From positions 1 through 54,909 of the forward strand of contig CAMAZY010000018.1 in assembly GCA_945863885.1 (NCBI GenBank): a stretch of 54,909 nt of DNA. The letters run 5' to 3'. The notes below the pieces were generated by a model. The model did no database searches and had not been told where the DNA came from. It saw only the letters and a program-made list of their open reading frames with translations. Both the position numbers and the translations under genes were made by a program. Positions 29,230-52,028 of the stretch are shown piece after piece (position 1 is the stretch's first letter; every line of letters begins with the position of its first letter). Origin of the DNA: an uncultured Clostridia bacterium. GTDB taxonomy: Bacteria > Bacillota > Clostridia > Oscillospirales > Acutalibacteraceae.

Positions 29230-29367
29230 ATGTCAAACATTCTTGAACTTGTACAGAACATTCTTGCGTATTTAAAGGAAGGAAAGGCTGCTGAGATTAT
29301 AGGCCTTATCAGAAAGTTCTTTGACGATCTGTTCAACAAGCCCGCAGACACTGCTCCCACTGAATAA
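29230..29367 (+). CDS. 45-residue amphipathic, acidic-tailed peptide (family member A)
   Basis: Not a recognised family. ATG 29230 has an AAAAGGAG leader 9 nt upstream, its own promoter, and a strong terminator 14 nt after the stop, so it is a convincing monocistronic gene. The predicted product has a hydrophobic/charged helix (ILELVQNILAYLKEG), then IIGLIRKFFDDLFNK, and ends in a Pro/Ala/Thr/Glu tail. There is no signal peptide or cysteine. The IxxFF(D/N)xxF core and acidic Thr/Ala tail recur in the three peptides at 51208-52028. Size and amphipathicity recall phenol-soluble modulins or leaderless bacteriocins, but sequence identity to them is not claimed. Confidence 0.75.
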   Translation: MSNILELVQNILAYLKEGKAAEIIGLIRKFFDDLFNKPADTAPTE

Positions 29368-29381
29368 TGGCATCGTTTTAG

Positions 29382-29405
29382 CCGCCCGAAAGGGCGGTTT
29401 TTTTG
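29382..29405 (+). terminator. terminator of peptide gene 29230
   Basis: CCGCCC-GAAA-GGGCGG followed by eight Ts. Confidence 0.95.
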
Positions 29406-29737
29406 TTGTTCTTTTGACTGATATAGGGAAGGATCTTTCACTTCGTCTGTTGCTTTCAAAAACGATTCAGCCGCTGTATTTTGTCATTATTATATTGATA
29501 TTGTTTTCATAGTGAGCCTGATCGCAAGCATAGATATTATTGATCTGCAGTATTCAAAACATGGCATGGCTTTCGAAATAAAGCCATCAGCGTTTATCAA
29601 CCATTATTGTGGTTTTTCACAAAGATTTGTCTCAACGGACAATTTGACAAACAAAGCTCATAACACGATATTATGAAAAGCCGGAATTCTGACGAAAATG
29701 ATTCACTATTAACTATCATTAAAAAGGGGAAAATATC
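29406..29737. other. 332-nt intergenic region with promoter
   Basis: No gene is supported. It contains an 8-bp hairpin ATGGCTTT/AAAGCCAT (29566-29587) and a likely promoter for the next gene: TTGACA (29644-29649) with TATTAT 19 nt, or GATATT 17 nt, downstream. Confidence 0.55.
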
Positions 29738-30424
29738 ATGAAAAGATTTTTAGCGGTTGTTTTGTCGGTGCTCATGCTTCTGATGTCCTTCGGAATCGGT
29801 GGCTTCGCAGTAAACGAAAAAACAGCTTCGGGTCAGACGCTCGAAAACGTAATGGAAGAGGTTGTCAAAGCTTTTGTCGGTGCGGACGAAACCGCCGAGG
29901 TAACGCTCAGCGACGGACTTTACAAAGCCGTCACAAAGGGGAAAAGAATGACCGCCGAACAGGTGGCGGCTTCGATTTCGGATTACATCTTCATCAAAAT
30001 AGGCGATGAAGAAGCCGAGCAGATTGCTTCTGAGATTGCCGACAGTGCCACTTATTCGGCAAATGTTCTGTCGTCGGGGGAAGAAACCGTTTACATTGTT
30101 GTCCGGATCAGTGAACACCCGGAAATTGCCAACCTGAGTGTTTTTTCCAAGACGGTTGAAAAAATGGCCGAAAAGCAAAAGGACGCTTTGACCGGGAAAA
30201 CCGAAAGTGTCAGCCTGATGGACTACAAGAGAATCGCCGGAGAGCTGGCACTCCACATTGCGGCGGCTGCGATTCTTGAGCCGGTAAAGAATACCTCCGC
30301 GGCGGCGAGTCTCTTTGAAACATTCGACTCTGCCGAAATCGACATCACCGAAATCAGACTTCCATCGCAACTGTTCAGCTTCATCGGCGCATTTTTACAA
30401 CTTCTTGCACGAGTATTCGGTTGA
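29738..30424 (+). CDS. secreted hypothetical protein with hydrophobic C-terminal helix
   Basis: A 228-residue protein with a clear signal peptide (MKRFLAVVLSVLMLLMSFGIGGFA). The mature part is acidic and mainly helical (TLENVMEEVVKAFVG, ADSATYSANVLSSG) with no domain I recognise. The last 18 residues (LFSFIGAFLQLLARVFG) form a hydrophobic amphipathic helix, similar in style to the C-terminus of the sialidase and the small peptides in this window. An AAAAGGGG ribosome binding site precedes the start. It is monocistronic, with its own terminator. Confidence 0.75.
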   Translation: MKRFLAVVLSVLMLLMSFGIGGFAVNEKTASGQTLENVMEEVVKAFVGADETAEVTLSDGLYKAVTKGKRMTAEQVAASISDYIFIKIGDEEAEQIASEIADSATYSANVLSSGEETVYIVVRISEHPEIANLSVFSKTVEKMAEKQKDALTGKTESVSLMDYKRIAGELALHIAAAAILEPVKNTSAAASLFETFDSAEIDITEIRLPSQLFSFIGAFLQLLARVFG

Positions 30425-30442
30425 AAACAATAAAATAAAATG

Positions 30443-30470
30443 AAAAAGCGCAGCTTCGGCTGCGTTTTTT
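30443..30470. terminator. bidirectional terminator between convergent genes
   Basis: CGCAGC-TTCG-GCTGCG stem with a T tract downstream and an A tract upstream, so it can serve both the secreted protein gene (plus) and the Cys-rich gene (minus). Confidence 0.92.
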
Positions 30471-30473
30471 GCG

Positions 30474-30986
30474 TTAATATGGTTCTTTCAGTAATTCTTT
30501 AATTTGCCTTGTGATGTATTTCTGATACTCTTGATTCGCAGTCAAAAAGCCTTTTTCAAAAGCATCGGGATATCGGAACTTTTTCATCTCTGCATTATCT
30601 TCAAACTGAATAATCAGGTAATTCTTTACGTTATCCTTTTCAACCACCCTACCCTTTTTTCCGTGCTTTGTAGTTACCTCCGCTCCGATCGGAAGCGGAC
30701 ATTTTATATCGGGAATCTTTTCGGCTTTCTTCATGATTACGGGTTGTTCTTTCGTTTCTTGCGAAGTCCTGTGCAGCTCTTTCTCTTCCTTCTCCTTTTT
30801 CTCTTTTTCCCGGAACGGACAATGTGTGGAGTAAAAACACTTTCCCAAATAATACATACATTTTTTACAGTTACAGATTCTGTCTTCATCGAGATAGATG
30901 CAGTCAGCCGCTTTTTCTTTCTTCCGGTTAACACTCTGAAATTCGTTGTGCCAACCGAAATCATTAAACTTACCCTTACCGCCCAT
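30474..30986 (-). CDS. hypothetical protein with N-terminal Cys cluster
   Basis: A 170-residue cytosolic protein. Residues about 29-57 hold six cysteines (CIYLDEDRICNCKKC, LGKCFYSTHCPF), suggestive of a metal site. A Lys/Glu-rich coiled-coil linker follows (about 58-80). A C-terminal beta domain (about 95-150; IGAEVTTKHGKKGRVVEKD, KKFRYPDAFEKGFL) resembles small SH3/KOW-like modules found in DNA- or RNA-associated Firmicutes proteins. The function is not known to me. GGGAGAG precedes ATG 30986. The promoter is likely extended -10 TGCTATAAT at about 31096-31104 (minus). Confidence 0.65.
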   Translation of the reverse strand: MGGKGKFNDFGWHNEFQSVNRKKEKAADCIYLDEDRICNCKKCMYYLGKCFYSTHCPFREKEKKEKEEKELHRTSQETKEQPVIMKKAEKIPDIKCPLPIGAEVTTKHGKKGRVVEKDNVKNYLIIQFEDNAEMKKFRYPDAFEKGFLTANQEYQKYITRQIKELLKEPY

Positions 30987-31172
30987 AAAGTCTCTCTCCC
31001 TTCGTATTGTAAACCGTTATTCTTCCTCTGTTGAACCGTCTGCGTCAAAACAACCAAAGATATGTGGCTGTCTTCTGCCATTTCCGGCCTTCTCGATTAT
31101 AGCACAGATTCCATCTTTCAAAAAAACAACGATTTTTTGTCCGGCGGCGGGCAAAAATCCATTGTTTTTTGC

Positions 31173-31195
31173 ATTGTATCATTTTATGATACAAT
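31173..31195. promoter_or_regulatory. 10-bp-arm palindrome, candidate operator
   Basis: ATTGTATCAT / ATGATACAAT separated by TTT. It is a perfect dyad about 75 nt from the -10 of the minus-strand gene and 113 nt from the AbrB-ABC promoter. A dimeric regulator site is the simplest reading. Confidence 0.55.
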
Positions 31196-31307
31196 ATTCA
31201 ATTTACTTTTTCTGTTTTTTCGATATTCCAATTATAAAATCAGCTTCTTTTCTGTAAAACCTCGTCATTTTTGCGTTTAAATGACAAAAAACTTTTCCTG
31301 AATCGGG

Positions 31308-31335
31308 TTGACAAATGAGATAATACGAGTATAAT
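31308..31335 (+). promoter_or_regulatory. promoter of the AbrB-ABC operon
   Basis: TTGACA (31308-31313), 16-nt spacer, perfect TATAAT (31330-31335), followed by an AAAGGAGG ribosome binding site. Confidence 0.8.
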
Positions 31336-31379
31336 CAGTATAACAAATCATACTTTTCATACCAAAAGGAGGCAACATT

Positions 31380-31601
31380 ATGACTTTTCCGAAGGATAAA
31401 TACGCCGGCATGGTAAAAGTGGGCGAAAAAGGACAGATTGTAATCCCGAAAGAAGCGAGAGATATGTTTGATATCAAACCGGGTGATACGCTTCTCATTT
31501 TAGGTGACAAAAAGAGGGGAATCGCCATTCCGCCGAAGGACTCGATTCTGTCGCTTACCGAAAAGATCTTCGGCGGTGAAAAAGGAGAGAGCGAACAATG
31601 A
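31380..31601 (+). CDS. AbrB/SpoVT-type DNA-binding protein
   Basis: A 73-residue swapped-hairpin AbrB-like regulator. It has GKVKVGEKGQIVIPKEAR-type sequence at about 10-28 (key residues K..GQIVIPKEAR), then FDIKPGDTLLILGD. It is the first gene of a three-gene module and overlaps the ABC ATPase start by 4 nt (ATGA). Such regulators often repress their own transporter operon. No MazF-like toxin follows, so it is not an antitoxin here. AAAGGAGG precedes the start codon. Confidence 0.88.
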   Translation: MTFPKDKYAGMVKVGEKGQIVIPKEARDMFDIKPGDTLLILGDKKRGIAIPPKDSILSLTEKIFGGEKGESEQ

Positions 31602-32452
31602 GCATTCTTGAAGTCGGAGGACTTTGTAAAAACTACCCGGGCTTTTCGCTTTCGGACGTTTCGTTTTCGCTTGAAAAGGGGAAAATTACCGGCTTCATCG
31701 GGCGAAACGGAGCCGGCAAGTCAACGACGCTCGGGTGTATTCTGAATTTTATCCATTCCGACTCAGGGGAAATCACCGTATTCGATAAAAGCTTTTCGGA
31801 CGACGAAGCCGGAATCAAACAGAAAATCGGCTATGTTTCGGGCGCGGTCAATTTCTATCCGAAAAAGAAGCTTCGTTCTATCGCCGCCGTGACAAAGCAG
31901 TTTTATTCCGGGTGGGACGATGCGGCTTATGAAAAATACTGCAAGCTTTTCTCGCTTGATGAGAACAAAACGCCGTCCGAGCTTTCCGCCGGCATGAAAG
32001 TCAAGTTTTCGCTGGCTCTTGCGCTGTCACACGGGGCAGAGCTTTTGGTTCTTGACGAGCCGACAAGCGGACTTGACCCGGTTTCGAGAGACGAGCTGCT
32101 TGAAATTTTTCTGACGCTCAAAGACGAGGGCAAAACGATCCTTTTTTCAACGCACATCACAAGCGACCTTGACTTTTGCGCCGACAATATCCTTTACATT
32201 CAAAAGGGAAAAATTGCCGCCGAAAGCCCGATCACCGATTTTGTCGGGAAGTACCGGCTTATCGAATACGAAAAGGACAGCCTGCCAGATGAGCAAAAAA
32301 AGAAGCTCATCGGTGAAATCCGCACGAAAAACGCCATGCGTGCGCTGATCATAGCCGAAGACCGGGAGCTTTTCGGACTTCCTGCCGAAAAAGCCGATTT
32401 GGAAAGCTGTATGGTTCATCTTGAAAAGGAGAGTGACGCAAATGACCGGTAA
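31598..32452 (+). CDS. ABC transporter ATP-binding protein
   Basis: A 284-residue ABC-2-type ATPase. Visible motifs are Walker A GRNGAGKST near 36, signature LSAGMKVKFSLALALS near 128, Walker B ELLVLDEPTSGLDP near 147 and H-loop ILFSTH near 183. The signature serine-glycine is LSAG rather than LSGG, as in other clostridial drug or peptide exporters of this group. The start overlaps the AbrB gene and the end overlaps the permease by 11 nt. The cargo is unknown. Confidence 0.93.
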   Translation: MSILEVGGLCKNYPGFSLSDVSFSLEKGKITGFIGRNGAGKSTTLGCILNFIHSDSGEITVFDKSFSDDEAGIKQKIGYVSGAVNFYPKKKLRSIAAVTKQFYSGWDDAAYEKYCKLFSLDENKTPSELSAGMKVKFSLALALSHGAELLVLDEPTSGLDPVSRDELLEIFLTLKDEGKTILFSTHITSDLDFCADNILYIQKGKIAAESPITDFVGKYRLIEYEKDSLPDEQKKKLIGEIRTKNAMRALIIAEDRELFGLPAEKADLESCMVHLEKESDANDR

Positions 32453-33095
32453 GCTGTTAAAAAAAGAATTCACGCTGACGATGCACCCAACGGTTCCGAT
32501 CATGCTTCTGCTCGGTACCATGGTGCTGATTCCGAATTACCCGTACCTTGTGGCGTTCTTTTACGTTACACTTTCCCTGTTCTTCACCTGCCTGAACGCA
32601 CGGGAAAACAACGATGCGGTTTTCTCGCTCTCTCTTCCCGTAAAAAAAACCGACCTTGTCCGGTCGAGAATCCTGTTTACGGGTATCATTGAACTTTCGA
32701 GCGTTCTGTTCGCCGCCCCGTTTACGATCCTGAGCGCAAAGATCGCACCGCAGGGAAACGCCGCCGGTATGGACGCAAACCTTGTTTTGCTCGGTCAGGC
32801 ACTTTTGCTGTTCGGGCTTTTCAACCTCGTGTTCTTCCCTTCCTATTATAAAGACATTTCGAAGGTCGGCGTTCCGTTTGTCAAGGCCTGCGTGGTTTCG
32901 TTCGCACTTGTTGCGGTTGACATCTGCCTTTGCTATGCCGTACCGTATGTCAAAGACGTGTTGGACACACCGGGCTTTGCTCACATCGTACCGAAAACGC
33001 TCTGTCTTCTTGCGGGTGCGCTGTCGTTTACCGTTTTAACGCTTGCGGCGTACAAGGTCAGCGAAAAACGCTTTTTAAAACTTGACATCCGATAA
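32442..33095 (+). CDS. ABC-2-type permease
   Basis: A membrane protein of about 217 residues with around six hydrophobic segments. The first follows the basic KLLKKEFTLTMHP start and includes FYVTLSLFFTCLNARENNDAVFS. It pairs with the ATPase just upstream. Start ATG 32442 is chosen because AAAGGAG lies ahead of it; the longer frame from 32421 lacks one. It is the last gene of the AbrB-ABC module. The ENNDAVFSLSLPVKKTDLV loop is typical of the clostridial ABC-2 permease group. Confidence 0.85.
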   Translation: MTGKLLKKEFTLTMHPTVPIMLLLGTMVLIPNYPYLVAFFYVTLSLFFTCLNARENNDAVFSLSLPVKKTDLVRSRILFTGIIELSSVLFAAPFTILSAKIAPQGNAAGMDANLVLLGQALLLFGLFNLVFFPSYYKDISKVGVPFVKACVVSFALVAVDICLCYAVPYVKDVLDTPGFAHIVPKTLCLLAGALSFTVLTLAAYKVSEKRFLKLDIR

Positions 33096-33159
33096 AGCGC
33101 AACAAAAGGCTTCGAAATGCCGGGGTATTTCGAAGCCTCTATCTTTAATTATTTAAGAT

Positions 33160-33663
33160 TCATGCCGGGTTTTCTTCCTGCGCCTCCGGCTTTCCGGTTC
33201 TTTCCTTTTTCGCAAAAATGATGAACTTGCTCAGAACGTAGTTTATGATAACAACCACCACGCCTAAAATCAGCTTTGCGACCATTTTTCCGCTTAGCGT
33301 AATGATGATGAAATCAAACGTCTTTTCGTCGAAATGAAGAATCTCGACAAAGAACCATAATCCCGCCTGCTCAATAAAATACGAAGCGACTCTCGCCCCG
33401 ATAAAGGACGGGATCTCTTTTTTTAACACGTCGAATTTCCAGCTTTTACTTTCAAAAACAAACAGCTTATTCGTAACGTAGGCAAATACAACCGCCGCAA
33501 TCCAGGCAATCGAGTTGGTCAGAAGATAAAGCTTTCCGCTGAAAATTACGTCGAACGCCTTGAAAACGACAAGATTGACAAGGGTCGTCAGCACACCGAA
33601 AATCACATATGTGATCGTTTCCTTATTCAAAAGGGCATGAAACAGTTTTTTGATTTTTTCCAT
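33160..33663 (-). CDS. GtrA-family membrane protein
   Basis: A 167-residue protein with four TM segments. The opening ETITYVIFGVLTTLVNLVVF and the ITNKLFVF-like segment (YVTNKLFVFESK) near 62 identify GtrA. Members are linked to flipping or transfer of lipid-linked sugars. It is followed by no glycosyltransferase here. It starts 14 nt after the PAP2 gene on the same strand, and a lipid-carrier recycling partnership with that phosphatase is plausible inference. Confidence 0.88.
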   Translation of the reverse strand: MEKIKKLFHALLNKETITYVIFGVLTTLVNLVVFKAFDVIFSGKLYLLTNSIAWIAAVVFAYVTNKLFVFESKSWKFDVLKKEIPSFIGARVASYFIEQAGLWFFVEILHFDEKTFDFIIITLSGKMVAKLILGVVVVIINYVLSKFIIFAKKERTGKPEAQEENPA

Positions 33664-33677
33664 ATTCTTCTTCTTTC

Positions 33678-34313: not shown

Positions 34314-34329
34314 TTTTTCGCCTCCTGAT

Positions 34330-35001: not shown

Positions 35002-35055
35002 TGCGGATTTCTGCCTGTCGGCTTATCCGCTTTTCCTTTCTTTCGATCTTCAGGA

Positions 35056-35682: not shown

Positions 35683-35695
35683 TCGTCTATCTCCT

Positions 35696-36157: not shown

Positions 36158-36249
36158 TCATATCACCGCCGGACTTTTCATATCTTTTACAAAGCGGCAA
36201 AATAAGCCCGCTGTAAACAGTATTTTATCATAAAGCAGGTGGTATTGCA

Positions 36250-36853: not shown

Positions 36854-36866
36854 GGGGGGATAGTGT

Positions 36867-37304: not shown

Positions 37305-37348
37305 CAAAACCCGGTTTGCGCAATAGAATATAAGACAGTATTCTATTG
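37301..37348 (+). promoter_or_regulatory. promoter with operator-like inverted repeat for the TSCPD gene
   Basis: TTGACA (37301-37306), 17-nt spacer, TAGAAT (37324-37329). The -10 lies inside a perfect 10-bp inverted repeat CAATAGAATA / TATTCTATTG (37321-37330, 37339-37348). A bound dimer would block the promoter; as RNA it would be a hairpin close to the 5' end and just before the AAAAGGAG site. Confidence 0.75.
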
Positions 37349-37699: not shown

Positions 37700-37925
37700 A
37701 AACAAGAGATAGAGGCGCAAAGCTTATGATTCGTTTTCCCGAGCCGCTCAAACGGCTTTGACGGAAAATCAAAGGAAGCTTTGCCGAAGCCTTTGATTGT
37801 TTGAGAAATCAAAGGCTGGGCGTCGGGAGAATATCCCGGCGACTGTCGCAGCAGCGGAGGGCTATCACGGGAAATCGTTATGATGACTTGAGTGGGCGCC
37901 TTTCGTGCTCACTTTTATTTTTATT
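37700..37925 (+). promoter_or_regulatory. lysine riboswitch (L-box) with terminator
   Basis: Conserved L-box blocks occur in order: AGATAGAGGCGC (37707-37718), GCCGAAGC (37783-37790), CTGGGCGTCG (37816-37825), GACTGTCGC (37841-37849) and GGAGGGCTATC (37856-37866). It is followed by a terminator hairpin GAGTGGGC..GCTCAC with TTTTATTTTT (about 37890-37924). Lysine binding would favour termination. Assignment is by eye; the pairing scheme was not folded. Confidence 0.9.
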
Positions 37926-37945
37926 CTAAATTGGAGGACAAAAAA

Positions 37946-40955: not shown

Positions 40956-41015
40956 TAGCTTAAGATGAAATCTTGTACTTTTGTATCATCTGTATTATTT
41001 AAGGAGGCAAAGCAA

Positions 41016-44000: not shown

Positions 44001-44465
44001 GGATACAAGGTATTCTACTCGACCAACAACAAGTCCTGGAAGAGTGTTACCACCACCAAGACAAGCGTCACGCTTACGAAGCTTTCCGCTAACACCAAGT
44101 ATTATGTAAAGGTACAGGTTCTCAAGAAGACAGCCGGCATCTATGCCACCTCTGCTTATTCCGCAACCGTTACCGGTGCAACAAGCGTTGCCAAGGTTTC
44201 CGGTCTTAAAGTAAAAGGTACCTCAAAGAACGCTATTGCCCTCTCCTGGAGCAAGGTTTCCGGCGCCAGCGGATACACCGTTTACAGACTCAGCGGCAAA
44301 AAGTGGGTGAAGGTTGCCGATGTCAAGACAAACTCTTATACCAATAAGGGTCTTTCAAGATCGACCTCCTATACCTATTGTGTCGCCGCCTACAAGACCG
44401 TTTCCAAGAAAGCGGTTTACGGTGATCAGTCAGCTTCTGTCAAAGCAAAGACCAAGTTTTTCTGA
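41016..44465 (+). CDS. large secreted protein with five FN3 repeats
   Basis: A 1149-residue exported protein. The signal peptide (KKVSTKVLSLLLSLVLIFG..AFA) is followed by about 650 residues of mostly helical sequence with no recognised domain, an Ig-like stretch near 640-700 (VVPLTATAVLDGKTYSLKLG), then five fibronectin type III repeats (about 708-1149). The repeats share the core W(K/G/S)(A/K)VSGASGY, indicating recent duplication. There is no sortase or S-layer anchor. ATG 41016 with AAGGAGG upstream replaces the longer frame at 40965. Probably a surface or adhesion-type protein; its FN3 repeats resemble the one in the 9754 gene product. Confidence 0.85.
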   Translation: MKKVSTKVLSLLLSLVLIFGTVTVAFAADDPAPQAPAVTYGSKYFQSTSDKANAKILLDKVDAALKEANMEKMELDFGVAKITIDFTSVDGICGTIDLVKSVWNLIGTKELVGDLGDNLLTLKTEEGLVFKNWPKDMSRSKTGDVEIINRVITLIADNANVIAGLMDGNVELGTLGNLLETAGVNINELFPAGGFYPMIQDMLVQAVYSDTESQAYKDAIAKVKANGIDAFVYEDMISDLVGKDLLPGFTMDGKTTFDELLKSVFKISWDNYLVKLIANINVDWSESDNEALKKLGAIMNLNGSTIDTANIPFDNSKSFSAQINDIIGYMAVQFFPGYTGWKSGDAGKLGANLNSLYLYVAKALGITDGINTSDSSAVAFAVVKYILANIESESMDAYIEGIDACKDLKQVAVVVLRNTAAINNIPVTSSTKATYENILGDILTYYVGKAIVLPYDAGAGKNVWTVLNDVANIFLYDKGFAKILKMTTTKDKDIFAKLDELIAKTKLFDNLDSSYDYSVKAFVKDGLLEAVFSLDLAKIVDITVSRFLKDFSTKVVANVGYDAIYNLLNGIFGKVILAKRNTSSDRPLDDAIKNDKLEAMIKNLLSSLNSKKASLVPAVAYIGALIISKPVATYSFSAGSQACLGGEAVVPLTATAVLDGKTYSLKLGRDYDVISTTADNYNLGSTVTAKLKVYGYADAEAEVTYKIILGAVENLKASSVTTNSAVLTWDAVPGAEQYQVVYNNKLIQTVSEPTCKLSLSAATEYKYSVRAIAGSQKGAYGSVYIITLPGKASTPTASSITDTSVKLSWKAVSGASGYVVEYYKSGKWVTLKAVTSTKYTVSGLKAKSTYYFRVKAYKKGTSGVAYGAESSYVKVNTLLGAPKLVASAATDNAIKVSWGKVSGAAGYVLQRYDGKKWVNVKVTTATTYTLTKLKANTTYPFRAVAYYKSGSKTVYGAYSATLSVSTAPVKTSTVKISSPTSSTLTVSWKAVSGASGYKVFYSTNNKSWKSVTTTKTSVTLTKLSANTKYYVKVQVLKKTAGIYATSAYSATVTGATSVAKVSGLKVKGTSKNAIALSWSKVSGASGYTVYRLSGKKWVKVADVKTNSYTNKGLSRSTSYTYCVAAYKTVSKKAVYGDQSASVKAKTKFF

Positions 44466-44482
44466 TATCAATAACAACACTT

Positions 44483-44517
44483 CGGGGTGCAGTTCAGACT
44501 GCACCCCGATTTCTTTA
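44483..44517 (+). terminator. intrinsic terminator of the FN3 protein gene
   Basis: CGGGGTGCAGT / ACTGCACCCCG with a TCAG loop and TTTCTTTATTT tail. It lies between convergent genes and may also form in the head-cassette transcript, though without a T tract. Confidence 0.88.
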
Positions 44518-45330
44518 TTTGAAAGCAATAAACACATACTTTCTGTCAAGCTCGTTCATCTTCGGATAAACACCGTATGAGGAATAGATTTCGCTTTGAC
44601 CCGCCCTGAACCCGTTCCTCTGAATGGCGACTCCCTTTGACGGATAACCGCGCGCCGCCATTGCGAAATAGACAACGGGATGTTCTCCGCTCATGGAAAG
44701 AAGTGCCGTTGACGGCGCAAAAACAATCAGAAACCGCGGATAGAATCCAAGGTCAATTACCTGTGCGTCGCCGTCGCCAAGCCCCGTATAAAGACCTAAA
44801 ACGTACGGCTCGTTCAAGTATTCCTTTTCCGCTTCGGTAAGATGCGATACCGTATCGTTGACGTGGGTTTTACACAAAAAATCCGCAAAAGGCTTCAACA
44901 CGCTGTCCTCAGTAACCGAGGCAGGACACTGCTCATACGAAAAGAACAGCCTGCACGGAAGACAGAACACCTTCAGACTGTCGTCGACTGTAACCGAGCC
45001 GATTTTAAAGCCTGTCATCTTGCCCTCGAAATAGCCCATGAGGATATCCGAAAGCTTGAGCGCAAGCTCATTGATCGTACCGTTGTTTTCGTCAAGCGGC
45101 GCATAGCAGTTCATTTTGATGACGATGCTCGTCTTTTGACAGCATTCTTCATTTTCATCTTCAAAAAGCTTCGATTCGCTTTCATGGCCGTTGAGAACAA
45201 CATAATACCGGTCAATCGGAATCGGATCACATATCGTATCGTAAGCGACAGTCGCCGTCACTTCCACCGGCAGATCTTCGCTTTCATTGATTTTCTGACA
45301 AGCCATCGTGATAATTTCATTCGTGTTCAT
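44515..45330 (-). CDS. phage-like fusion: tail-terminator-like N-domain with fibre-like C-domain
   Basis: A 271-residue protein. The N-terminal half (about 1-150; DTICDPIPIDRYYVVLNG, LKLSDILMGYFEGKMTG) looks like a small head-tail/terminator-type minor protein. The C-terminal half (about 165-271; GLYTGLGDGDAQVIDLGFYP, FLIVFAPS) matches the GxYTGxG...IDLGFxP pattern at the ends of phage tail fibres. Joining these two is unusual. It is the last gene of the head cassette. GGAAAGGAG precedes ATG 45330. The domain reading is pattern-based, with no structural check. Confidence 0.6.
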   Translation of the reverse strand: MNTNEIITMACQKINESEDLPVEVTATVAYDTICDPIPIDRYYVVLNGHESESKLFEDENEECCQKTSIVIKMNCYAPLDENNGTINELALKLSDILMGYFEGKMTGFKIGSVTVDDSLKVFCLPCRLFFSYEQCPASVTEDSVLKPFADFLCKTHVNDTVSHLTEAEKEYLNEPYVLGLYTGLGDGDAQVIDLGFYPRFLIVFAPSTALLSMSGEHPVVYFAMAARGYPSKGVAIQRNGFRAGQSEIYSSYGVYPKMNELDRKYVFIAFK

Positions 45331-45351
45331 TGTTGCTTCTCCTTTCCGTGA

Positions 45352-45774
45352 CTAATAGCTGACCCGGTGAACGATTGACCAGCAATAGCACTCTTTTTCG
45401 CCGAAGCTTACCGTTTCGCTGTGGTCACAGCAATATTTTCCGTCCGAGGCGGTGATGACGACATTTTCCCGCTCGTTTTGCTTCAGCTTGACATCGGGCT
45501 GAGAGATGAGCAGATATTTTTTCGTCGTATTGTACCCAAGCTCGGTCGAAATGCCGTTAAGGTACATTTTATTTTTATACCGAAGCGGCTGAAGAAAACC
45601 GAAAAATTCGGTTTCCTCGCCGTTTTTGAGTCTCGTCATCTTTCGGCCGAACTTTTTGATCAGTCCGCTGATTTGTGCATCATACCGGACGTTATTCTGC
45701 GCTGAAATAAAAACCACCGTCCCTAAGGATTCCGGCAGCGTTCGCCAACGCCTCGCGAACCAGTTGCGATTCAA
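45352..45774 (-). CDS. small phage structural-type protein (start uncertain)
   Basis: The frame codes up to 140 residues, but the first 27 codons overlap the 3' end of the previous gene (stop at 45692) and are doubtful. A start in the region of 45690-45639 is more likely, giving about 95-110 residues. The body (EETEFFGFLQPLRYKNKMYLN, KKYLLISQPDVKL) is beta-rich, as in small phage head-completion or neck proteins. It ends 21 nt before the terminator/fibre-like gene. Confidence 0.55.
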   Translation of the reverse strand: MNRNWFARRWRTLPESLGTVVFISAQNNVRYDAQISGLIKKFGRKMTRLKNGEETEFFGFLQPLRYKNKMYLNGISTELGYNTTKKYLLISQPDVKLKQNERENVVITASDGKYCCDHSETVSFGEKECYCWSIVHRVSY

Positions 45775-46054
45775 ACTGAAGCTCTTTTTCGGCGTTTCTT
45801 TCCGTCGTGATATCCCCTATTTTATATTTTTGAAACCGCAGACCGACACCGGACTGCTTCTTGAACAACAGATACCGTGCGACAGCCGCCGCTGTTTCAC
45901 CGATCAGCGGATCGTCCTTGTCCGCTGTATCTTTCAGCTTTGACAAAACGAAGTTCAAAGCCCTTTGACAAAGCGGCAACATCTCTTCGGCGCCGATATC
46001 TTCCGTGTCGGTATTTTCCTTAAGCAGTGCAAATACCGATGCTGCATCCGTCAT
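45692..46054 (-). CDS. phage head-tail connector-type protein
   Basis: A protein of about 120 residues, mostly helical (EMLPLCQRALNFVLSKLKD, IGETAAAVARYLLFKK). Size, position directly after the capsid gene, and helical content fit a gp6-like connector, but no diagnostic motif is seen. ATG 46054 is preferred over TTG 46057; AAAGGAG lies upstream. Confidence 0.6.
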   Translation of the reverse strand: MTDAASVFALLKENTDTEDIGAEEMLPLCQRALNFVLSKLKDTADKDDPLIGETAAAVARYLLFKKQSGVGLRFQKYKIGDITTERNAEKELQFESQLVREALANAAGILRDGGFYFSAE

Positions 46055-46068
46055 CAATTTTGCTCCTT

Positions 46069-47076
46069 TCAGACGGAAAGCGATTTTGACGCCGGAGTAA
46101 AGATTTTTGCAAAGCCGCTGATTGTTGTAATTGCCGCTCTTTCAAGCTGGCGGTCAATCAGCTTGTCAAACTCTGTCAGAACGCCGCCCGCCTGAACCTG
46201 TTCGAGTGCGCAGGTGCGGTCAAGTCCGATCAGCTTTCCGGCGCCGACGCTCGCACTCTTCAAAAGCTCGGCTCCGAACGGTGTGACAAGCTTACCCGTG
46301 GCGTGGAAATCAAGACCTGCCGAAGCGTCCTTGAACTGAGACATGGAAAGAATCTTCGCCGTAAGGTCGGGTGAAGCGATAATCGTTGTAAGACTGTACG
46401 GATCAAAGCCGTTCCAGAAATTCACAAGATCGGTATAGTCGAGCACACCGTCGGCGGCTGTTTTCGATTCGGTAATAGGATTCTCGTTGCCGTCGCCGTT
46501 TACAAGGACATCAATGGCATCCTTGAGCTGCATTTTAGCAATATAAGCGCCGATCTGACGCAGGGTCACCGAGAAAAGGTCAAGGCGCTGAAAACGAAGT
46601 GCTTCATAAGAAGCGACAAGCATTCTGCCTCTCTTTTTAAGGGTAACAAGGTTTTCCTGTGTCTTGACCGCTGTTTCGGGAATGGCTTCGCCCTCAGCAA
46701 CGATTTTAAGCTCCTTGTCGTCCTCAGAGGGAACGGAAGCGATGGTGCGGTAGTCCATGCCCTTGATATCGGTCACGGTTGCCACGATTTTCGGAAGAAT
46801 GTCGTTTTCTTCGATGCCTCTGTAAACCGAACGGCTGACATATTCCGGGAACAGTGCCGCCGAGTCCGAGGTCTTGAAAAATTTTTCAACCGTATCACTG
46901 CCTCTGCCCGAAACCTTGATGTCGAATCTTTTCAGCTGTCGCTGAAACGCATCAAGCCCCTCAAGCTCGGTTCCGATGTATTCCTCTGACGGATCAAGCT
47001 CCTCAAGCGCCTTGGTGAAGCTTTTTCCTGTTGTGTAAAGTCCTTTTTCAAGCTTAATGTTTTCAAATCTTGCCAT
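46069..47076 (-). CDS. HK97-fold major capsid protein
   Basis: A 335-residue capsid protein. Typical features are a long N-terminal arm (residues 1-95), the E-loop/P-domain region KIVAEGEAIPETAVKTQEN near 125, LKKRGRMLVASYEALR near 148, and a C-terminal A-domain part (VSSAGLDFHATGKLV-like) to 335. An encapsulin is excluded by the portal, protease and terminase genes in the same run. GGAGG stands before ATG 47076. Intact length suggests it can still assemble. Confidence 0.82.
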   Translation of the reverse strand: MARFENIKLEKGLYTTGKSFTKALEELDPSEEYIGTELEGLDAFQRQLKRFDIKVSGRGSDTVEKFFKTSDSAALFPEYVSRSVYRGIEENDILPKIVATVTDIKGMDYRTIASVPSEDDKELKIVAEGEAIPETAVKTQENLVTLKKRGRMLVASYEALRFQRLDLFSVTLRQIGAYIAKMQLKDAIDVLVNGDGNENPITESKTAADGVLDYTDLVNFWNGFDPYSLTTIIASPDLTAKILSMSQFKDASAGLDFHATGKLVTPFGAELLKSASVGAGKLIGLDRTCALEQVQAGGVLTEFDKLIDRQLERAAITTISGFAKIFTPASKSLSV

Positions 47077-47089
47077 GTAAAAATCCTCC

Positions 47090-48004
47090 TTAAATTTTAA
47101 ATGCGTTGTTGTTCACGTTTTTTGCCGCCTTTTCGCTTTTCAGTTGAATCTGCGGCGGAATGATCTGTTTTGCCTGCGCTTCAAGTCCGCTTTTGAGCGT
47201 TTCAAGCTTTTCGACCGAAAGACAGTCAAGTCCCTTGGTAAACAGTCCGACGTTCACCTTCGGCATCACGATCATGCAAAGGCGTTCGATGCCGGAAACA
47301 AGGCTGTTCCGGTACGTCTTCGCCTCATGCTCGTACTCCTCAAGCTTTCCGATGTAAGCGGACAGCGTATCAGCCTGCGTCTTTGTCAGCGTCAGCTCGC
47401 CGTCACATTCCTTGATTGCTTTGATAATATCCGTATTCTTTTCCTCCTTTTTGAAGAAGCTTTTGGTAACGCCCGCCTCCCGTTGCGACGGGACAGCAAC
47501 AAAGGACCATTCGTAAGCGTCTGTCGGCTCCGAAAGAATTCCGCAGCAAAGCTTGCCGCCGTATACTCGTCCCTTGATGTGCGTGCATTCACCGGTTTTC
47601 ATGTCTTTTCCGCAAACGGAGCAAACCGATTTTTTCACCGAGCAGCCGACGCTGACCTCTTTTTTGATTCCGGCGTCGATTTCGTCAATCAGTGCCTTGT
47701 TTTGGTCGGTTCTCACCATATACGCCTTGGCTTTTAAAGCGGTATAGGGTTCACCCGCCGAGGTCAGCCGGTCTTTATCGGTCTCGACCCATGTTTTGAA
47801 AATGCGTGCGCTCTGACCCGCCGCCGACATATTGTGGTCAAAAATTCCCGTCTTTCCTAAAAACAGCGTGCAAAGCTTCTGAAGTGCGCTCACCGTAAAC
47901 CGTTCGAAATCCCGGTCAACCTCGTTGTCACAAAGGGTAACGGGGAAAATATACACCTGCTGAGCCGTAAGAACCGAGCGGGTATAGTGATTGATAAGCG
48001 TCAT
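47090..48004 (-). CDS. prohead protease with scaffold-like C-terminus
   Basis: A 304-residue protein. The HK97-type protease part shows a candidate His in GIFDHN (H57) and Ser in KKEVSVGCS (S118), then EWSFVAVPSQREAG near 170. Between these lies a Cys-rich insert (CSVCGKDMKTGECTH..GKLCCGIL) likely to bind zinc. The C-terminal 120 residues are coiled-coil-like and would serve as scaffold. ATG 48004 lies 4 nt after the portal stop; a longer frame would run into the portal gene. Confidence 0.75.
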   Translation of the reverse strand: MTLINHYTRSVLTAQQVYIFPVTLCDNEVDRDFERFTVSALQKLCTLFLGKTGIFDHNMSAAGQSARIFKTWVETDKDRLTSAGEPYTALKAKAYMVRTDQNKALIDEIDAGIKKEVSVGCSVKKSVCSVCGKDMKTGECTHIKGRVYGGKLCCGILSEPTDAYEWSFVAVPSQREAGVTKSFFKKEEKNTDIIKAIKECDGELTLTKTQADTLSAYIGKLEEYEHEAKTYRNSLVSGIERLCMIVMPKVNVGLFTKGLDCLSVEKLETLKSGLEAQAKQIIPPQIQLKSEKAAKNVNNNAFKI

Positions 48005-48008
48005 ATCG

Positions 48009-49178
48009 TCAATGTTCTTGTTTTCCGTTTTTCTCTCCTCCAATCTCACTGAGAATCTTTTCTGCCTGTGCGTTGTAATAACTGCTTCTTGCGATTTCGG
48101 TAAGATCCTGAAGCGTAATGTCGTCCCAGACGATGTCAACATCGCAGCAAAAGCCCGAAAGCCGTAACTGCCAAAGGCAGATTTTCCGGATTACCGGCTC
48201 GATTTCACGGCGGTAGGCGTCAATTTCACTTGTGAGAATATCCGCCTGCTGATACGACATTCTTTCCGTTGAGGACCAGCTAAGCCCCAATAAAAACGGC
48301 GGAATTCCGAGCTTTGCCACGATCTGTTCGAGCACCTGCCTGACGGGCACCTCGCTGTCAAGAATCTGATTGTCCGCCCCGATGGCCTTAATCGAAACGT
48401 CGCCGACAGCGATAAAATCCCTGACCGGACCGTTCGGGTCCATCGCCTTGCTCCATTCGTCGGCGACACACTGTGCCCTTTCCCGGGCGTACGCCTTGTC
48501 GATTGCGTCGTCCTGCGGCTTGTAGGTCACGGCGAAGCGCACGTTGCCGAGCCGTTCCCAATTGACGCCGACCGTGTTCATGATTTTCAAAAACACGTCG
48601 CTGACAAACGGCAAGCCTTTGAGAACCGATGTACCGTAAACACTTCCGGGCTCCGGATTGTGAACACATGTAAGAATCAGCTGGGGATACTTCACCGGAA
48701 CAAACACACCCGATTGGTCCCGTGCCGAAACGGTGACGGCAAGCGGATTGTCACCACTCGAAAGGTTGACGTCCTCGAGACGGGCGTTATAAAGGTGGCT
48801 GACCTCACCGCCGGAAACGACAATCTCGCCGACGGCCGTCCCGTAAGTCAGAAGCTGTTCGAAAAACGTAGAAATAAAGCTGTCGATTCCCGTCCTCGTT
48901 CCTGAAACGTTCACCGACCTTAAAAAGCGCCGTAGCATTTCGTCTGCCTTTGCATTTCCCGTCTTCGCTTCAAACGAGCCTAAAAGCCTTACGGTTTTGA
49001 GGATAGCCGCATCAATAATCGGAACCGCTTCCCGCAAGGAACGGTACAGCTCAAAATCGGCGTTTTTTCCGGGATAATAAGCCGACAGCGGCATAAACGG
49101 GTGTCGGCTTGCACCGGTCTGAGTAACGGCGGCAACGGTCTTTTTTGCGCCTTTTTCCTTTTTTCTTAAAAGTGCCAA
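48009..49178 (-). CDS. phage portal protein
   Basis: A 389-residue portal with TTG start (49178) behind AAAGGAG. Family segments include LYRSLREAVPIIDAAILKTV near 45, IPPFLLGLSWSSTERMSYQQ near 300 and EIDAYRREIEPVIRKIC near 325. Full length for this group. It starts 15 nt after terL. Confidence 0.85.
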   Translation of the reverse strand: MALLRKKEKGAKKTVAAVTQTGASRHPFMPLSAYYPGKNADFELYRSLREAVPIIDAAILKTVRLLGSFEAKTGNAKADEMLRRFLRSVNVSGTRTGIDSFISTFFEQLLTYGTAVGEIVVSGGEVSHLYNARLEDVNLSSGDNPLAVTVSARDQSGVFVPVKYPQLILTCVHNPEPGSVYGTSVLKGLPFVSDVFLKIMNTVGVNWERLGNVRFAVTYKPQDDAIDKAYARERAQCVADEWSKAMDPNGPVRDFIAVGDVSIKAIGADNQILDSEVPVRQVLEQIVAKLGIPPFLLGLSWSSTERMSYQQADILTSEIDAYRREIEPVIRKICLWQLRLSGFCCDVDIVWDDITLQDLTEIARSSYYNAQAEKILSEIGGEKNGKQEH

Positions 49179-49193
49179 GCGTTTTCTCCTTTC

Positions 49194-50456
49194 TTATTCC
49201 TTTTCTCTTTGGGCGGCCACGGCGAAAAATCCTCCGCCGCTTTCGCCTAAGTACGTCGAAACAAAATACCGGATATCGTCCATTGCGTGGTCGTTTTCTT
49301 TTTTCGGAACGTCCTTTGTCTGACCCTCTTCCCAACGGTAAAGCGAAAACTCCCTGAGTGTGTCCGTGCAGTCGGGACCGATTCTGATTTTTCCTTGTTT
49401 AAGAGCCTCATGAACCTTCCGGATTCCGTCCGTCACGCTGTTTTTTGCGGGCAGAGCTTTGAATTTTCCGTGCCGTCTGATGCACTGAATGAAGCTTGCC
49501 GCCGAGGGGTCAACGATAACCGCTTCGATTTTTCTTTTGCCTGCAAGACGGCAAAGTGCCTCGTAGTATTCTTCGTCCGTAAGCTGTTTCCCCTCTCTTC
49601 TTGACGAATAATAATACTCGTTTTCTCTGTACCATGTTCCGCCGTGTTTTGCCCAAAGCCCCATCGACATCGGATTCACCGTACCGTAATCGCAGGAGAT
49701 ACAGTACTGCTCGGCCGTGCCGTCGGGCGGCTTTTTTGTGTAACTGCCCCTTGCCGCTTCCGGATAAACAAGCCCTTCGGCGGCGACCCATTTTCCGAGC
49801 ACAAACCGTTCGTAAAACGCACCGCTGTAAAGCGATTGATAGCGTTTGAGCACCTCGGGAGAAAGGGACGGATTGTCGCTCATTAAAAAATGAAGATACA
49901 GGCAGTTTTTCTCTTTGCATTTTTTGATCCATTCCCGATAAAACCAATGCATGGGGTTTTCGGGATTGCAGTTGAACCAGAATTTAGCCCCCTCGGGCGA
50001 ACAGCGGGCAAGAGCTTGTTCTACGAATGATCGCGGCATCAGTGCCACCTCGTCAAGCAACACGCCCGAAAGCGTCATTCCCTGAATCAGCGAAGCCGAG
50101 CTTTCGTCCCGTCCGCCGAAAAGATAAAATCGGTTCCTTGTTTTTCCGAAACGGATTTCAATCAGATTTTGTGTGTACTTTTCTTTACAGTCAAAGCCGA
50201 GGCTTCTTAAAAGCGGAATCAGGCTGCATATAATATTCCGTTTTAAAGAAGCGATTGTTTTTCCGCAAAAAGCAAAGTCGGCTTCGTTGAAACAATGAAA
50301 AGCCCACGACACAAACGACAGCGACATGCAGGTCGTTTTTCCGCTTCTGACCGCACCGTCGCAGATAATACCATCGAAAGAACGGTAAGGGGAGCTTTCG
50401 TGCCACCAGGAAAGTACGGAAAGCTGTTTTTTTGAAAAGGCGTGAAACTCAGTCAT
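49194..50456 (-). CDS. terL: phage terminase large subunit (PBSX-like)
   Basis: A packaging ATPase/nuclease of about 420 residues. Walker A GAVRSGKTT lies near 34, Walker B GVLLDEVA near 136, and the RNase-H-like nuclease acids in ISCDYGTVNPM near 255, VIVDPSAASF near 330 and NDHAMDDIRYF near 400, so both activities look intact. ATG 50456 (MTEFHAF) overlaps the terS stop by 8 nt. Confidence 0.9.
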   Translation of the reverse strand: MTEFHAFSKKQLSVLSWWHESSPYRSFDGIICDGAVRSGKTTCMSLSFVSWAFHCFNEADFAFCGKTIASLKRNIICSLIPLLRSLGFDCKEKYTQNLIEIRFGKTRNRFYLFGGRDESSASLIQGMTLSGVLLDEVALMPRSFVEQALARCSPEGAKFWFNCNPENPMHWFYREWIKKCKEKNCLYLHFLMSDNPSLSPEVLKRYQSLYSGAFYERFVLGKWVAAEGLVYPEAARGSYTKKPPDGTAEQYCISCDYGTVNPMSMGLWAKHGGTWYRENEYYYSSRREGKQLTDEEYYEALCRLAGKRKIEAVIVDPSAASFIQCIRRHGKFKALPAKNSVTDGIRKVHEALKQGKIRIGPDCTDTLREFSLYRWEEGQTKDVPKKENDHAMDDIRYFVSTYLGESGGGFFAVAAQREKE

Positions 50457-50928
50457 CAGTAGCCTCCGCAATAGCTTTTGCACTGTTTTCAATCGCCGAA
50501 TAGAGCGACAACGCTCCTTGTGTCTGTTCCCGATCCCCTATTTCACTCAGCTTTTCGAGAGCCTTCAATCGGTCAAAAAATTTAATTTCAACCGCTCCGC
50601 CTTTCTGCCTTTTAACTTCCGCAACATTAAAAAGGTCAAGCTTCAAAAGCTCCTCCCGGCTGATTTCCGGGTCAAGAATCAGCGTCACCGCATCGCTCAC
50701 GCAGCCGAACGCAAGCCGTCTGTACCCGGCCGCGACCTCCGGAGTACAGCTTTTCTTCTCTGCGTCAAGCTTTTCGATATAGTCCGTGATTTCCTTTTTC
50801 CGAAGCAGTCTTATCGCCTTACGGGGGTTGTTGCCGAAGCCGCTTTTTACCGCCGCTTCTCTTGCGTTGCGGTCAAGGTGATAATAAATACAAAACAGTT
50901 TTTCTTTTGCCGTTAATTCGTTTGACAA
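50449..50928 (-). CDS. terS: phage terminase small subunit
   Basis: A 159-residue DNA-recognition subunit. The N-terminal helix-turn-helix region (LTAKEKLFCIYYHLDRNAR, AAVKSGFGNNPRKAI) is typical of Terminase_2 proteins. Start is TTG 50928 after AAAGGAGAAG. First gene of the head cassette. Confidence 0.85.
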   Translation of the reverse strand: MSNELTAKEKLFCIYYHLDRNAREAAVKSGFGNNPRKAIRLLRKKEITDYIEKLDAEKKSCTPEVAAGYRRLAFGCVSDAVTLILDPEISREELLKLDLFNVAEVKRQKGGAVEIKFFDRLKALEKLSEIGDREQTQGALSLYSAIENSAKAIAEATDD

Positions 50929-51019
50929 ATTCTTCTCCTTTCCTTTTGGTTTTTTCTCCCGAGAAGAGCGTTTTTTCGCCGCATCGAAAATCTGCTCTTC
51001 ACTAAATCCCCGTAAAATG

Positions 51020-51043
51020 AAAAAAATCCCGCAAAAAGCGGGA
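51020..51043 (-). terminator. terminator-like hairpin upstream of terS
   Basis: Minus strand TCCCGC-TTTTT-GCGGGA followed by seven Ts. It lies between the peptide genes and terS, so it would shield terS from read-through, or act as an attenuator of the head cassette. Confidence 0.85.
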
Positions 51044-51144
51044 CTTTTCAGAAAAAATTTTTAAAAAATCAGATAAAAAACAAAAAAAGAGCAAAAAAAC
51101 CGCTGTCAGAACAGACATCGGAAAAACTGCCGTATAAAAAGGCT

Positions 51145-51172
51145 AGCCGCCTGAAAATCAGGCGGCTTTCCA
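51145..51172 (-). terminator. terminator of peptide gene 51208
   Basis: AGCCGCCTG / CAGGCGGCT with a 5-base loop, then AGCCTTTTTA on the minus strand. Confidence 0.85.
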
Positions 51173-51207
51173 TTTTAAAATTTCAAATTTTAAAACAGCA
51201 CAATTGA

Positions 51208-51369
51208 TTATTCAGCAACTGTTGTTTCAAGGTCAGCCCACGGGCTGTCATCCTTAAGGATTGTGTCCTTAGCGAATGCCCAAAGCTTATCAAAGAACTC
51301 AACGATAGCCTTCCAGTTGTCATTAAGGAACTTGATGAAGTTGTTCCAAGAAGCGTTAAGATCGATCAT
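51208..51369 (-). CDS. 53-residue amphipathic, acidic-tailed peptide (family member B)
   Basis: Too short for standard gene calling but well supported: promoter, AGGAGG eight bases before ATG 51369, and a terminator after the stop. The product has a Trp/Phe-rich amphipathic helix (NNFIKFLNDNWKAIVEFFDK, LWAFAK) and an acidic Thr tail ending LETTVAE. No signal peptide, TM segment or Cys. The NWKAIVEFFDKLWAF core aligns with YWEEICDFFDAFYAF in peptide C. Function unknown. Confidence 0.75.
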   Translation of the reverse strand: MIDLNASWNNFIKFLNDNWKAIVEFFDKLWAFAKDTILKDDSPWADLETTVAE

Positions 51370-51399
51370 GTTTATTTCCTCCTATTACAAATATTAATC

Positions 51400-51456
51400 A
51401 AAGACATTTGGTCTTTAACTTGCCTATATTGTACAGCATTCTTTAAACAATGTCAA
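51400..51456 (-). promoter_or_regulatory. promoter and leader hairpin of peptide gene 51208
   Basis: Minus strand TTGACA (51456-51451), 17-nt spacer, TACAAT (51433-51428), with a leader hairpin AAAGAC/GTCTTT at 51416-51400. Confidence 0.8.
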
Positions 51457-51532
51457 TAGTTAATTCAAAAAAAATTCATGATTTTAACGGAAGAAAGTCA
51501 CTTTTTTATAAAAGGACGGGTACAAGACAAAA

Positions 51533-51551
51533 GCCGGGAAAAGCTCCCGGC
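51533..51551 (-). terminator. terminator of peptide gene 51585
   Basis: GCCGGGAGCTTTTCCCGGC followed by TTTTGTCTT on the minus strand. Confidence 0.8.
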
Positions 51552-51584
51552 CGATGTGCGATCTGTTTAAATCACTTGCATTCA

Positions 51585-51713
51585 TTATTCTTCTTCAGCG
51601 TCAGCATTCGTTGCTTTATCGATAAGAGCTTTTACAAAAGCATAAAATGCATCAAAGAAATCACAGATTTCCTCCCAATAGGTTTTTACGAAAACAAAAA
51701 AGCCGTTATTCAT
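51585..51713 (-). CDS. 42-residue amphipathic, acidic-tailed peptide (family member C)
   Basis: ATG 51713 has AAGGAGG nine bases upstream, its own promoter and terminator. A longer frame to 51800 would run through the promoter and is rejected. The product begins NNGFFVFVKTYWEEICDFFD, continues AFYAFVKALIDK and ends ADAEEE. One Cys. Shares the WxxIxxFFDxxxAF core with peptide B. Confidence 0.75.
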   Translation of the reverse strand: MNNGFFVFVKTYWEEICDFFDAFYAFVKALIDKATNADAEEE

Positions 51714-51748
51714 AGTGTTTTCCTCCTTGAAATATTGAAGATTTTTTC

Positions 51749-51810
51749 CGATACTTTGTTGAGAAGTATCGATTTTCCTATATTTTAGTATATCTTTCAT
51801 ACATTGTCAA
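51749..51810 (-). promoter_or_regulatory. promoter and leader hairpin of peptide gene 51585
   Basis: Minus strand TTGACA (51810-51805), 17-nt spacer, TAAAAT (51787-51782), with a perfect 8-bp leader hairpin CGATACTT/AAGTATCG at 51771-51749. Confidence 0.82.
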
Positions 51811-51878
51811 TACAAAATTCAAAATCAATTTACTTTTGCAATAGATCCTACGCATCTGTCATGAGCAAAGACAATCGC

Positions 51879-51909
51879 AAAAAACAAGGCTCCCCTTTTG
51901 GAGAGCCTT
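51879..51909 (-). terminator. terminator of peptide gene 51915
   Basis: AAGGCTCTCC-AAAAG-GGGAGCCTT followed by GTTTTTT on the minus strand. Confidence 0.88.
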
Positions 51910-51914
51910 TACCA

Positions 51915-52028
51915 TTATGCCTGTGCAGTTGTTTCTTCTTCGTCCTTCTTGATGAACTTGTTGAAGAAGTCGAGAATAAGCTCATAAAGACCCTTTAAGA
52001 AGTTGATAAGATCGCCGAGTGTTTTCAT
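51915..52028 (-). CDS. 37-residue amphipathic, acidic-tailed peptide (family member D)
   Basis: ATG 52028 has AAGGAGG nine bases upstream, plus its own promoter and terminator. The product is KTLGDLINFLKGLYELILDF, then FNKFIKK and a DEEETTAQA tail. It keeps the LYELILDFFNKF version of the family core and an acidic Thr/Ala end like peptide B. Confidence 0.75.
   Translation of the reverse strand: MKTLGDLINFLKGLYELILDFFNKFIKKDEEETTAQA

Follow-up and report, generated by a model that had tools for sequence, protein, structure and literature searches.

Small leaderless, mostly acidic amphipathic-helix genes of uncultured gut Clostridia, with phenol-soluble modulins as their nearest known kind

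The DNA analyzed here, called the window throughout, is the 54,909-nt contig CAMAZY010000018.1 (positions 1-54,909, forward strand; contig C18 of the host genome) of assembly GCA_945863885.1, a 2.60 Mb, 98% complete genome of an uncultured Clostridia bacterium. It carries four very small genes, P0001 to P0004, which an earlier reading of the letters without database searches (the sequence-only reading) had grouped as a family of amphipathic peptides. The four open reading frames (ORFs) lie where that reading placed them and have the lengths it reported (Table 1). As it had described, each is preceded by an AAGGAG/AGGAGG-type ribosome site that can be read from the sequence and is followed on the coding strand by a terminator-like hairpin, and we likewise recognized no signal peptide in the window peptides, judging by eye without a predictor. 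Its claim of a consensus promoter on all four holds for P0002 and P0003 and was overstated for P0001 and P0004. The four ORFs are real genes of a family under purifying selection: fast-evolving small genes encoding leaderless, mostly acidic amphipathic helices of 28-54 residues, carried by uncultured gut Clostridia of a single taxonomic family.

This family is larger than the four members first proposed. We aligned 55 peptides as profile A1, choosing them from 62 distinct sequences obtained by an iterated profile search over the fetched loci; three ends of longer proteins were kept out, and the remainder were redundant or doubtful. Of 34 host-genus genomes, A1 (E ≤ 0.001) matched 33, including 15 of 15 among the best genomes, with 1-8 matches per genome and 121 in all, 104 of them within frames of at most 80 codons (short-frame matches). 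Since two genomes (G009 and G022) match in long frames only, a peptide-sized ORF is present in 31 of the 34. The host genome itself holds a fifth copy (G000:C33:22385-22510), in which an internal ATG gives a peptide of the same make. Genome G020 of the host genus preserves the order P0002-P0004, with identities of 93%, 77%, 48%, and 89% to P0001 through P0004, respectively, and P0002 relatives carrying the motif NWAxIVAFFDK adjoin the terminase small subunit gene (terS) in several genomes.

The substitution pattern in these genes is that of translated sequence. Between the window and G020, nonsynonymous divergence (pN) is far below synonymous divergence (pS) for P0001 (0.04 versus 0.47) and P0004 (0.05 versus 0.31). 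A P0002 pair from the genus shows a smaller gap (0.13 versus 0.26). Within the genus pN was below pS in all 13 gene pairs compared, which were hand-picked as putative orthologs and include one pair (G006/G006b) inside a single genome; with the pairs from other genera described below the count is 29 of 29. The sequence-only reading had staked its case on homologs with synonymous-biased substitution, and these were found. Chance ORFs, or small RNAs that contain an ORF by accident, would suit the short lengths and the isolated intergenic transcription units, but this explanation, which we regard as scarcely credible for any member, is already refuted for the family as a whole by the 29 pairs and by the conservation of start codon, ribosome site, and frame among A1 members. 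Furthermore, Rfam gave two matches within positions 28900-54909, neither of which overlaps a peptide gene.

The members share physical properties as well as a reading frame. The net charge is negative in 54 of the 55 A1 members and neutral in one (mean −4.9), most peptides end in a disordered stretch rich in Glu, Asp, Ala, and Thr, and the helical moment exceeds 1.645 standard deviations of a peptide's own shuffles in 49 of 55, the outcome of an analysis that the sequence-only reading had proposed. AlphaFold2 predicts helices at residues 4-17 and 19-37 for P0002 alone, and consecutive helices at residues 2-11 and 13-40 for P0003 with 11 relatives (mean pLDDT 86), each followed by a low-confidence tail. 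Expression signals recur with similar regularity. Promoters were scored as matches out of 12 to two hexamers within 130 nt, and scores of 11 or 12 were reached by 32 of the 52 placeable A1 members, compared with 22 among 128 intergenic starts of ordinary genes, which were taken as longest-ORF starts and may be misplaced in a way that lowers their scores. A terminator lies within 100 nt of 40 of these 52 members, compared with none of 260 shuffles (5 each). Thus the genes are nearly universal and multi-copy in the host genus, mostly with a strong housekeeping-type promoter and a terminator of their own, and the earlier proposal of small, acidic, amphipathic helices that lack a leader and are each encoded by a separate gene with a strong promoter is borne out.

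A homology-free screen of 41 genus loci returned 31 candidates, which by eye were of this peptide type except for one Cys/Asn-rich ORF, and the same screen of 39 other loci returned a single candidate that was not acidic. Because 20 of the 41 genus loci had been fetched around peptides, the screen is biased, and the fair comparison is that of loci centered on the major capsid protein (MCP) gene, given below. The screen also yielded a 47-residue acidic, aromatic-rich ORF (L117 2461-2604, −), which is probably a further family member. Another ORF from it (L125 5394-5549, +), of 51 residues with abundant Cys, Asn, and Gly, has a good promoter and a good terminator but does not resemble the peptide family.

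Table 1. Peptide genes of the window, their putative signals, and the neighboring exporter-like and phage-head genes.
Feature	Position	Strand	Remarks
P0001, 45-residue acidic amphipathic peptide gene	29230..29367	+	orthologs in G020 (93%) and G025 (72%)
P0001 promoter-like site	29155..29183	+	TTGACT-17-TAACAT, 9/12, TG before second hexamer
P0001 terminator-like hairpin	29380..29399	+	
P0002, 53-residue peptide gene	51208..51369	-	closest of the four to terS
P0002 promoter-like site	51428..51456	-	TTGACA-17-TACAAT, 11/12
P0002 terminator-like hairpin	51145..51167	-	
P0003, 42-residue peptide gene	51585..51713	-	subfamily FFxFVETYWEDI
P0003 promoter-like site	51782..51810	-	TTGACA-17-TAAAAT, 11/12
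P0003 terminator-like hairpin	51532..51552	-	
P0004, 37-residue peptide gene	51915..52028	-	subfamily T(I/L/V)GD
P0004 promoter-like site	52061..52089	-	TTGATT-17-TATACT, 9/12, extended -10
P0004 terminator-like hairpin	51886..51909	-	
AbrB-type regulator, downstream of P0001	31380..31601	+	TIGR01439 E 1.3e-14
ABC transporter ATPase	31598..32452	+	best NCBIfam model PSM exporter PmtA (NF047565), 235.9 bits
ABC-2 type permease	32421..33095	+	PF13346 E 2.6e-12
Terminase small subunit (terS)	50449..50928	-	PF03592 E 7.7e-15
Terminase large subunit (terL)	49194..50492	-	PF03237 E 4.2e-11; phrog_2 E 6.5e-46
Portal protein	48009..49178	-	phrog_30703 E 7.6e-128
phrog_16951 protein	47090..48142	-	E 1.4e-100; at usual protease/scaffold position, putative role from position
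Major capsid protein	46069..47076	-	phrog_3922 E 2.2e-100
Head-module gene, last but one	45352..45774	-	no family match
Head-module gene, last	44515..45330	-	no family match

Outside the host genus the answer depends on how the search is sampled. When 295 genomes from 149 genera, spread evenly over the order, were searched with the profile, the window's own genome was recovered, and the three other matches were weak and lay in frames 138, 942, and 1147 codons long. A denser sample of the family (398 genomes in 135 genera, 7 of them from the host genus) gave weak A1 matches in all 7 host-genus genomes and in 25 of the 391 others, across 13 genera, about half of the latter matches sitting in short frames; we therefore dropped the restriction to the host genus that the order search had implied. 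Strikingly, at least six other genera (g186, g187, g196, g214, g218, and g242) carry same-strand sets of two to nine such ORFs, which the sequence-only reading had missed. Among the matches listed, nine of 17 longer stretches hold three or more matching peptides, the largest sets being those of L297 (nine peptides in two runs) and L298 (eight in two runs), while L303, L306, and L307 hold two or three and L304, L305, L308, L309, and L310 hold one. Gaps within sets are mostly 10-110 nt.

These tandem-set peptides resemble the genus members in several respects. Their ends are likewise rich in Glu, Thr, and Ala, and pN was below pS in 16 of 16 between-species pairs, again hand-picked as putative orthologs, the narrowest being 0.43 versus 0.59. 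They are less acidic than the genus members (25 negative, 5 neutral, and 2 positive among 32). Alignment of the genus profile with a tandem-set profile by hhalign gave a probability of 95.6, and A1 preferred the forward over the reversed sequence in 29 of the 32, a figure biased by the fact that most tandem-set peptides were found using A1.

Short chains of 28-54 residues that by eye lack a signal sequence and that form amphipathic α-helices are traits of the phenol-soluble modulins (PSMs), and several genes per genome are a further likeness to the PSMs of staphylococci (alpha, beta, epsilon, and delta-lysin). The tandem sets of the six other genera, with several peptides on one strand, resemble in layout the PSM operons of the alpha and beta types, whereas the window genes, like most of those in the host genus, have separate promoters and terminators. 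PSMs also supply the best, non-significant matches in structure and family databases. In a PDB search PSM-alpha-3 was the top entry for both the genus profile (E 0.042) and the tandem-set profile (E 0.021), neither value being significant, and a reversed-sequence control, of which one was made, showed no modulin among 10 rows. The Pfam models PSMalpha and Delta_lysin each touched one of the 55 members (best E 0.15 and 0.085), a further delta-lysin model one (E 0.047), and the PSM-epsilon NCBIfam model three of the 32 tandem-set peptides (best E 0.001), with one score shown of 14.8 bits against a cut-off of 33. Further differences from PSMs are the mostly net acidic charge with an acidic tail, the lack of a genus-wide Pmt exporter, and the hosts themselves, which are gut Clostridia and not staphylococci. 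Since sequence did not support membership, we dropped the filing of these peptides as PSMs and kept the comparison as one of how they may work. The PSM likeness noted in the sequence-only reading thus stands as the best available comparison, although no significant sequence match backs it. Taken together, the profiles point to modulins as the nearest known kind, with common descent unproven; a layout and fold type like those of modulins recur in bacteria far removed from staphylococci, with no significant similarity of sequence.

We found no description of this peptide family in the open-licence literature. A related case is that of LspU and LspD of Staphylococcus aureus, which are reported to be unannotated, genus-conserved, PSM-like small proteins (mBio 2025, PMC12607899), traits that the present peptides share. 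According to that report, LspU and LspD have 21 residues and lie inside a lipase mRNA, unlike the longer peptides here with mostly their own units or sets, and LspU stays in cells that lack Pmt and AbcA (PMC12607899).

We favor, at roughly even confidence, a role as surface-active modulin-like peptides that would be exported or would act at a membrane face. Leaderless helices in many copies, under low constraint and with strong promoters or tandem sets, fit peptides that work in bulk at surfaces. The peptides would be made in quantity, and the helix would lie flat on membranes or hydrophobic surfaces such as the cell's own envelope, neighboring cells, fiber, or lipid or bile micelles, where it would act as a surfactant, aid spreading, form aggregates, or cause mild lysis. 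The acidic tail may keep the peptide soluble and limit self-harm. Export would presumably use an ABC transporter, with no particular one assigned.

A candidate for such a transporter lies beside P0001. The unit consists of an AbrB-type regulator, an ATPase, and a permease, and for the ATPase the PmtA model leads clearly over the next (124.1 bits) without reaching its curated cut-off of 350. In G020, P0001 is directly upstream of the AbrB/ATPase/permease unit, 237 nt from the AbrB gene. No peptide gene was seen adjoining the PmtA-like ATPase in G023, G029, G026, or G012, and ATPase matches at or below 172 bits look like general ABC ATPases. We rejected this exporter as a defining partner of the system; occurring in so few genomes and without an adjoining peptide in four of them, the unit is a lead and not a part of the system.

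Several observations weigh against a modulin-like role. PmtA-like ATPases (at least 187.8 bits) occur in 6 of the 34 genomes only, none of the 34 exceeds the model cut-off, and P0001 lies beside such an ATPase in two genomes only; among the matches listed, no transporter was seen by eye to recur beside other peptide copies. No Pfam, NCBIfam, or PDB match was significant, and no curated cut-off that we saw was reached. Alpha-type PSMs are cationic, in marked contrast to the net acidic peptides of the genus. Transcription, translation, and secretion are predictions. Finally, the low sequence constraint is likewise compatible with an intracellular role at the membrane surface.

Such a role would make the peptides small proteins that bind the inner membrane face or a membrane protein, as do SpoVM and AcrZ, and tune transporters or cell shape. 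Consistent with this, the peptides lack a signal peptide and a constant exporter, and four stretches (L115, L120, L122, and L123) each have a P0003-like gene on the same strand as, and 61-80 nt downstream of, a gene judged by eye to be MATE-like. However, binding to a partner should hold one face of a protein more constant, whereas these genes are multi-copy, turn over fast, occupy dispersed positions, and in tandem sets encode very different peptides, and no single neighbor recurs across the copies. We therefore consider an intracellular role possible but unlikely. A diacylglycerol-kinase-like gene (named by eye) also lies near the P0003-like gene in these four loci.

The tandem sets of different peptides, together with the leaderless, amphipathic, and fast-diverging character of the family, could also be those of leaderless bacteriocins exported to kill close relatives, to which the sequence-only reading had likened its four peptides. 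Aureocin A53 and enterocin L50 are indeed leaderless, helical, and of similar length, and the AMEP412 elicitor model touches three of the 55 members (best E 0.017). Known leaderless bacteriocins, these two included, are cationic, however, and the charge of the present peptides runs the other way (54 of 55 genus members net negative and one neutral; 25 of 32 tandem-set peptides negative). Among the matches listed, no immunity or transport neighbor was seen by eye to recur beside the peptide genes, and near-universal presence in a genus is unusual for bacteriocins. With an acidic charge and no constant transporter or immunity gene seen, the likeness fits poorly, and we judge a bacteriocin function improbable.

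Two further features of the surroundings merit mention. Proteins with a signal-like start and an amphipathic-helix end are encoded at window positions 29738-30424 (+), L131 18035-19216, L126 824-7594, and L123 11875-13632; the peptide profile weakly matched these ends, which are cationic in L131 and possibly represent a shared end signal. A gene of the Na+/H+ antiporter family (37892-39835) is preceded by a lysine riboswitch (RF00168, 109 bits) at window positions 37702-37872 (+).

P0002-P0004 adjoin the terS side of a seven-gene phage-head module (44515-50928, −), a neighbor that the sequence-only reading had also missed. Of the 20 stretches retrieved initially, 11 contain the module, and L107-L114 and L116-L118 carry it. 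Its capsid gene occurs in 33 of the 34 genus genomes at one place each, save for two contig-end pieces in G009, and these pieces aside the genus capsid genes are 54-96% identical. The order sample has the gene once each in 43 of its 295 genomes, spread over 34 of the 149 genera. Relatives that carry names are metagenome-assembled genomes of gut and rumen Clostridia. Loci of other lineages (L162, L181, L157, and L158) carry the same head genes followed by compact baseplate- or fiber-like genes (by eye) that extend to about 5 kb past the MCP gene, with no tape-measure-sized gene seen, and the seven-gene unit of the genus has no baseplate or fiber-like genes. A scan of IMG/VR with the capsid protein found no relative, using patterns from one sequence only. 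Four human-faecal records labeled "Bacteriophage sp." (L262-L265: MT836604, MT835508, MT835952, and MT835769) contain a related head module with capsids 63-68% identical; no peptide gene was found in them, and their DNA may come from bacteria and not from phages. A 1166-residue fibronectin type III protein adjoins the module in the window (40965-44465, +). Similar proteins flank the module in L107 and L116, and in L121, L124, and L126 they are found next to P0003-like peptides.

The packaging and capsid genes are kept single-copy by lineage, as expected of a gene transfer agent, and the module resembles, and is a candidate for, an agent of this kind. The nearest parallel is FpGTA of Faecalibacterium, a genus in the same order-level group of gut Clostridia; it is described as a compact, genus-wide terS, terL, portal, and capsid unit without replication genes, comprising ten ORFs compared with the seven genes here, the likeness being one of gene content (Nat Commun 2026, PMC12946183).

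Peptide genes lie near this module more often than random placing would give. Once the 17 of 121 A1 matches in longer frames are set aside, 18 of 33 genomes have short-frame matches within 7 kb of the capsid gene. These number 33 of 103 where 0.66 are expected, a count that describes and does not test the association because the species share ancestry. In loci centered on the MCP gene, a peptide gene lies within 10 kb in 10 of 20 from the genus and in none of 39 others, defined as loci whose coordinates fit none of the 34 genus genomes, some of which could still belong to the host genus. In L149, L152, L153, L156, and L184 the peptide gene starts divergently 224-252 nt from terS. In an alignment of nine genomes that share this arrangement, a TTGACA-type promoter is conserved toward the peptide gene. 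Toward terS, what is conserved is an inverted repeat (such as TTGTTGCA...TGCAACAA) with its hairpin, and then a TATARGTGAGAG-like box just ahead of the ribosome site. With a promoter of one kind on one side and a hairpin and box on the other, the peptide gene and terS are probably controlled apart.

This proximity could mean that the peptides are a working part of a gene-transfer-agent-like module and breach a membrane so that capsids can leave or DNA can enter, the strongly expressed peptides beside terS standing in for the holin, tail, or baseplate genes lost from a slimmed-down agent. In line with such a loss, one baseplate-like gene of another lineage gave two weak matches and no strong one against the 34 genus genomes, other tail genes not having been searched. 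However, the 39 MCP-centered loci without a peptide gene include equally short modules, so the head module does not need the peptides; in addition, many peptide genes lie elsewhere, promoters are found in both orientations, and that of the peptide gene looks separate and housekeeping-type. We regard this role as very unlikely. We also rejected an operon of peptides with the head module, since orientation varies and the peptide promoter stands alone. The tie between the two may be one of location only.

If the surface-active, modulin-like reading is true, modulin-like peptide arsenals, which to our knowledge are otherwise known only from staphylococci and their close kin, would be standard equipment, so far unannotated, across a large group of Clostridia from gut and rumen. 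At 28-54 residues and with such fast divergence, these ORFs escape ordinary gene callers and homology searches; with the profile and the tandem layout, metatranscriptomes and peptidomes can be searched for the peptides directly. Apart from the peptides, the near-constant head module provides another lead, this one toward gene transfer agents of uncultured gut Clostridia. The peptides themselves would be candidates for shaping how these bacteria spread on fiber, compete, handle bile, and make contact with host cells.

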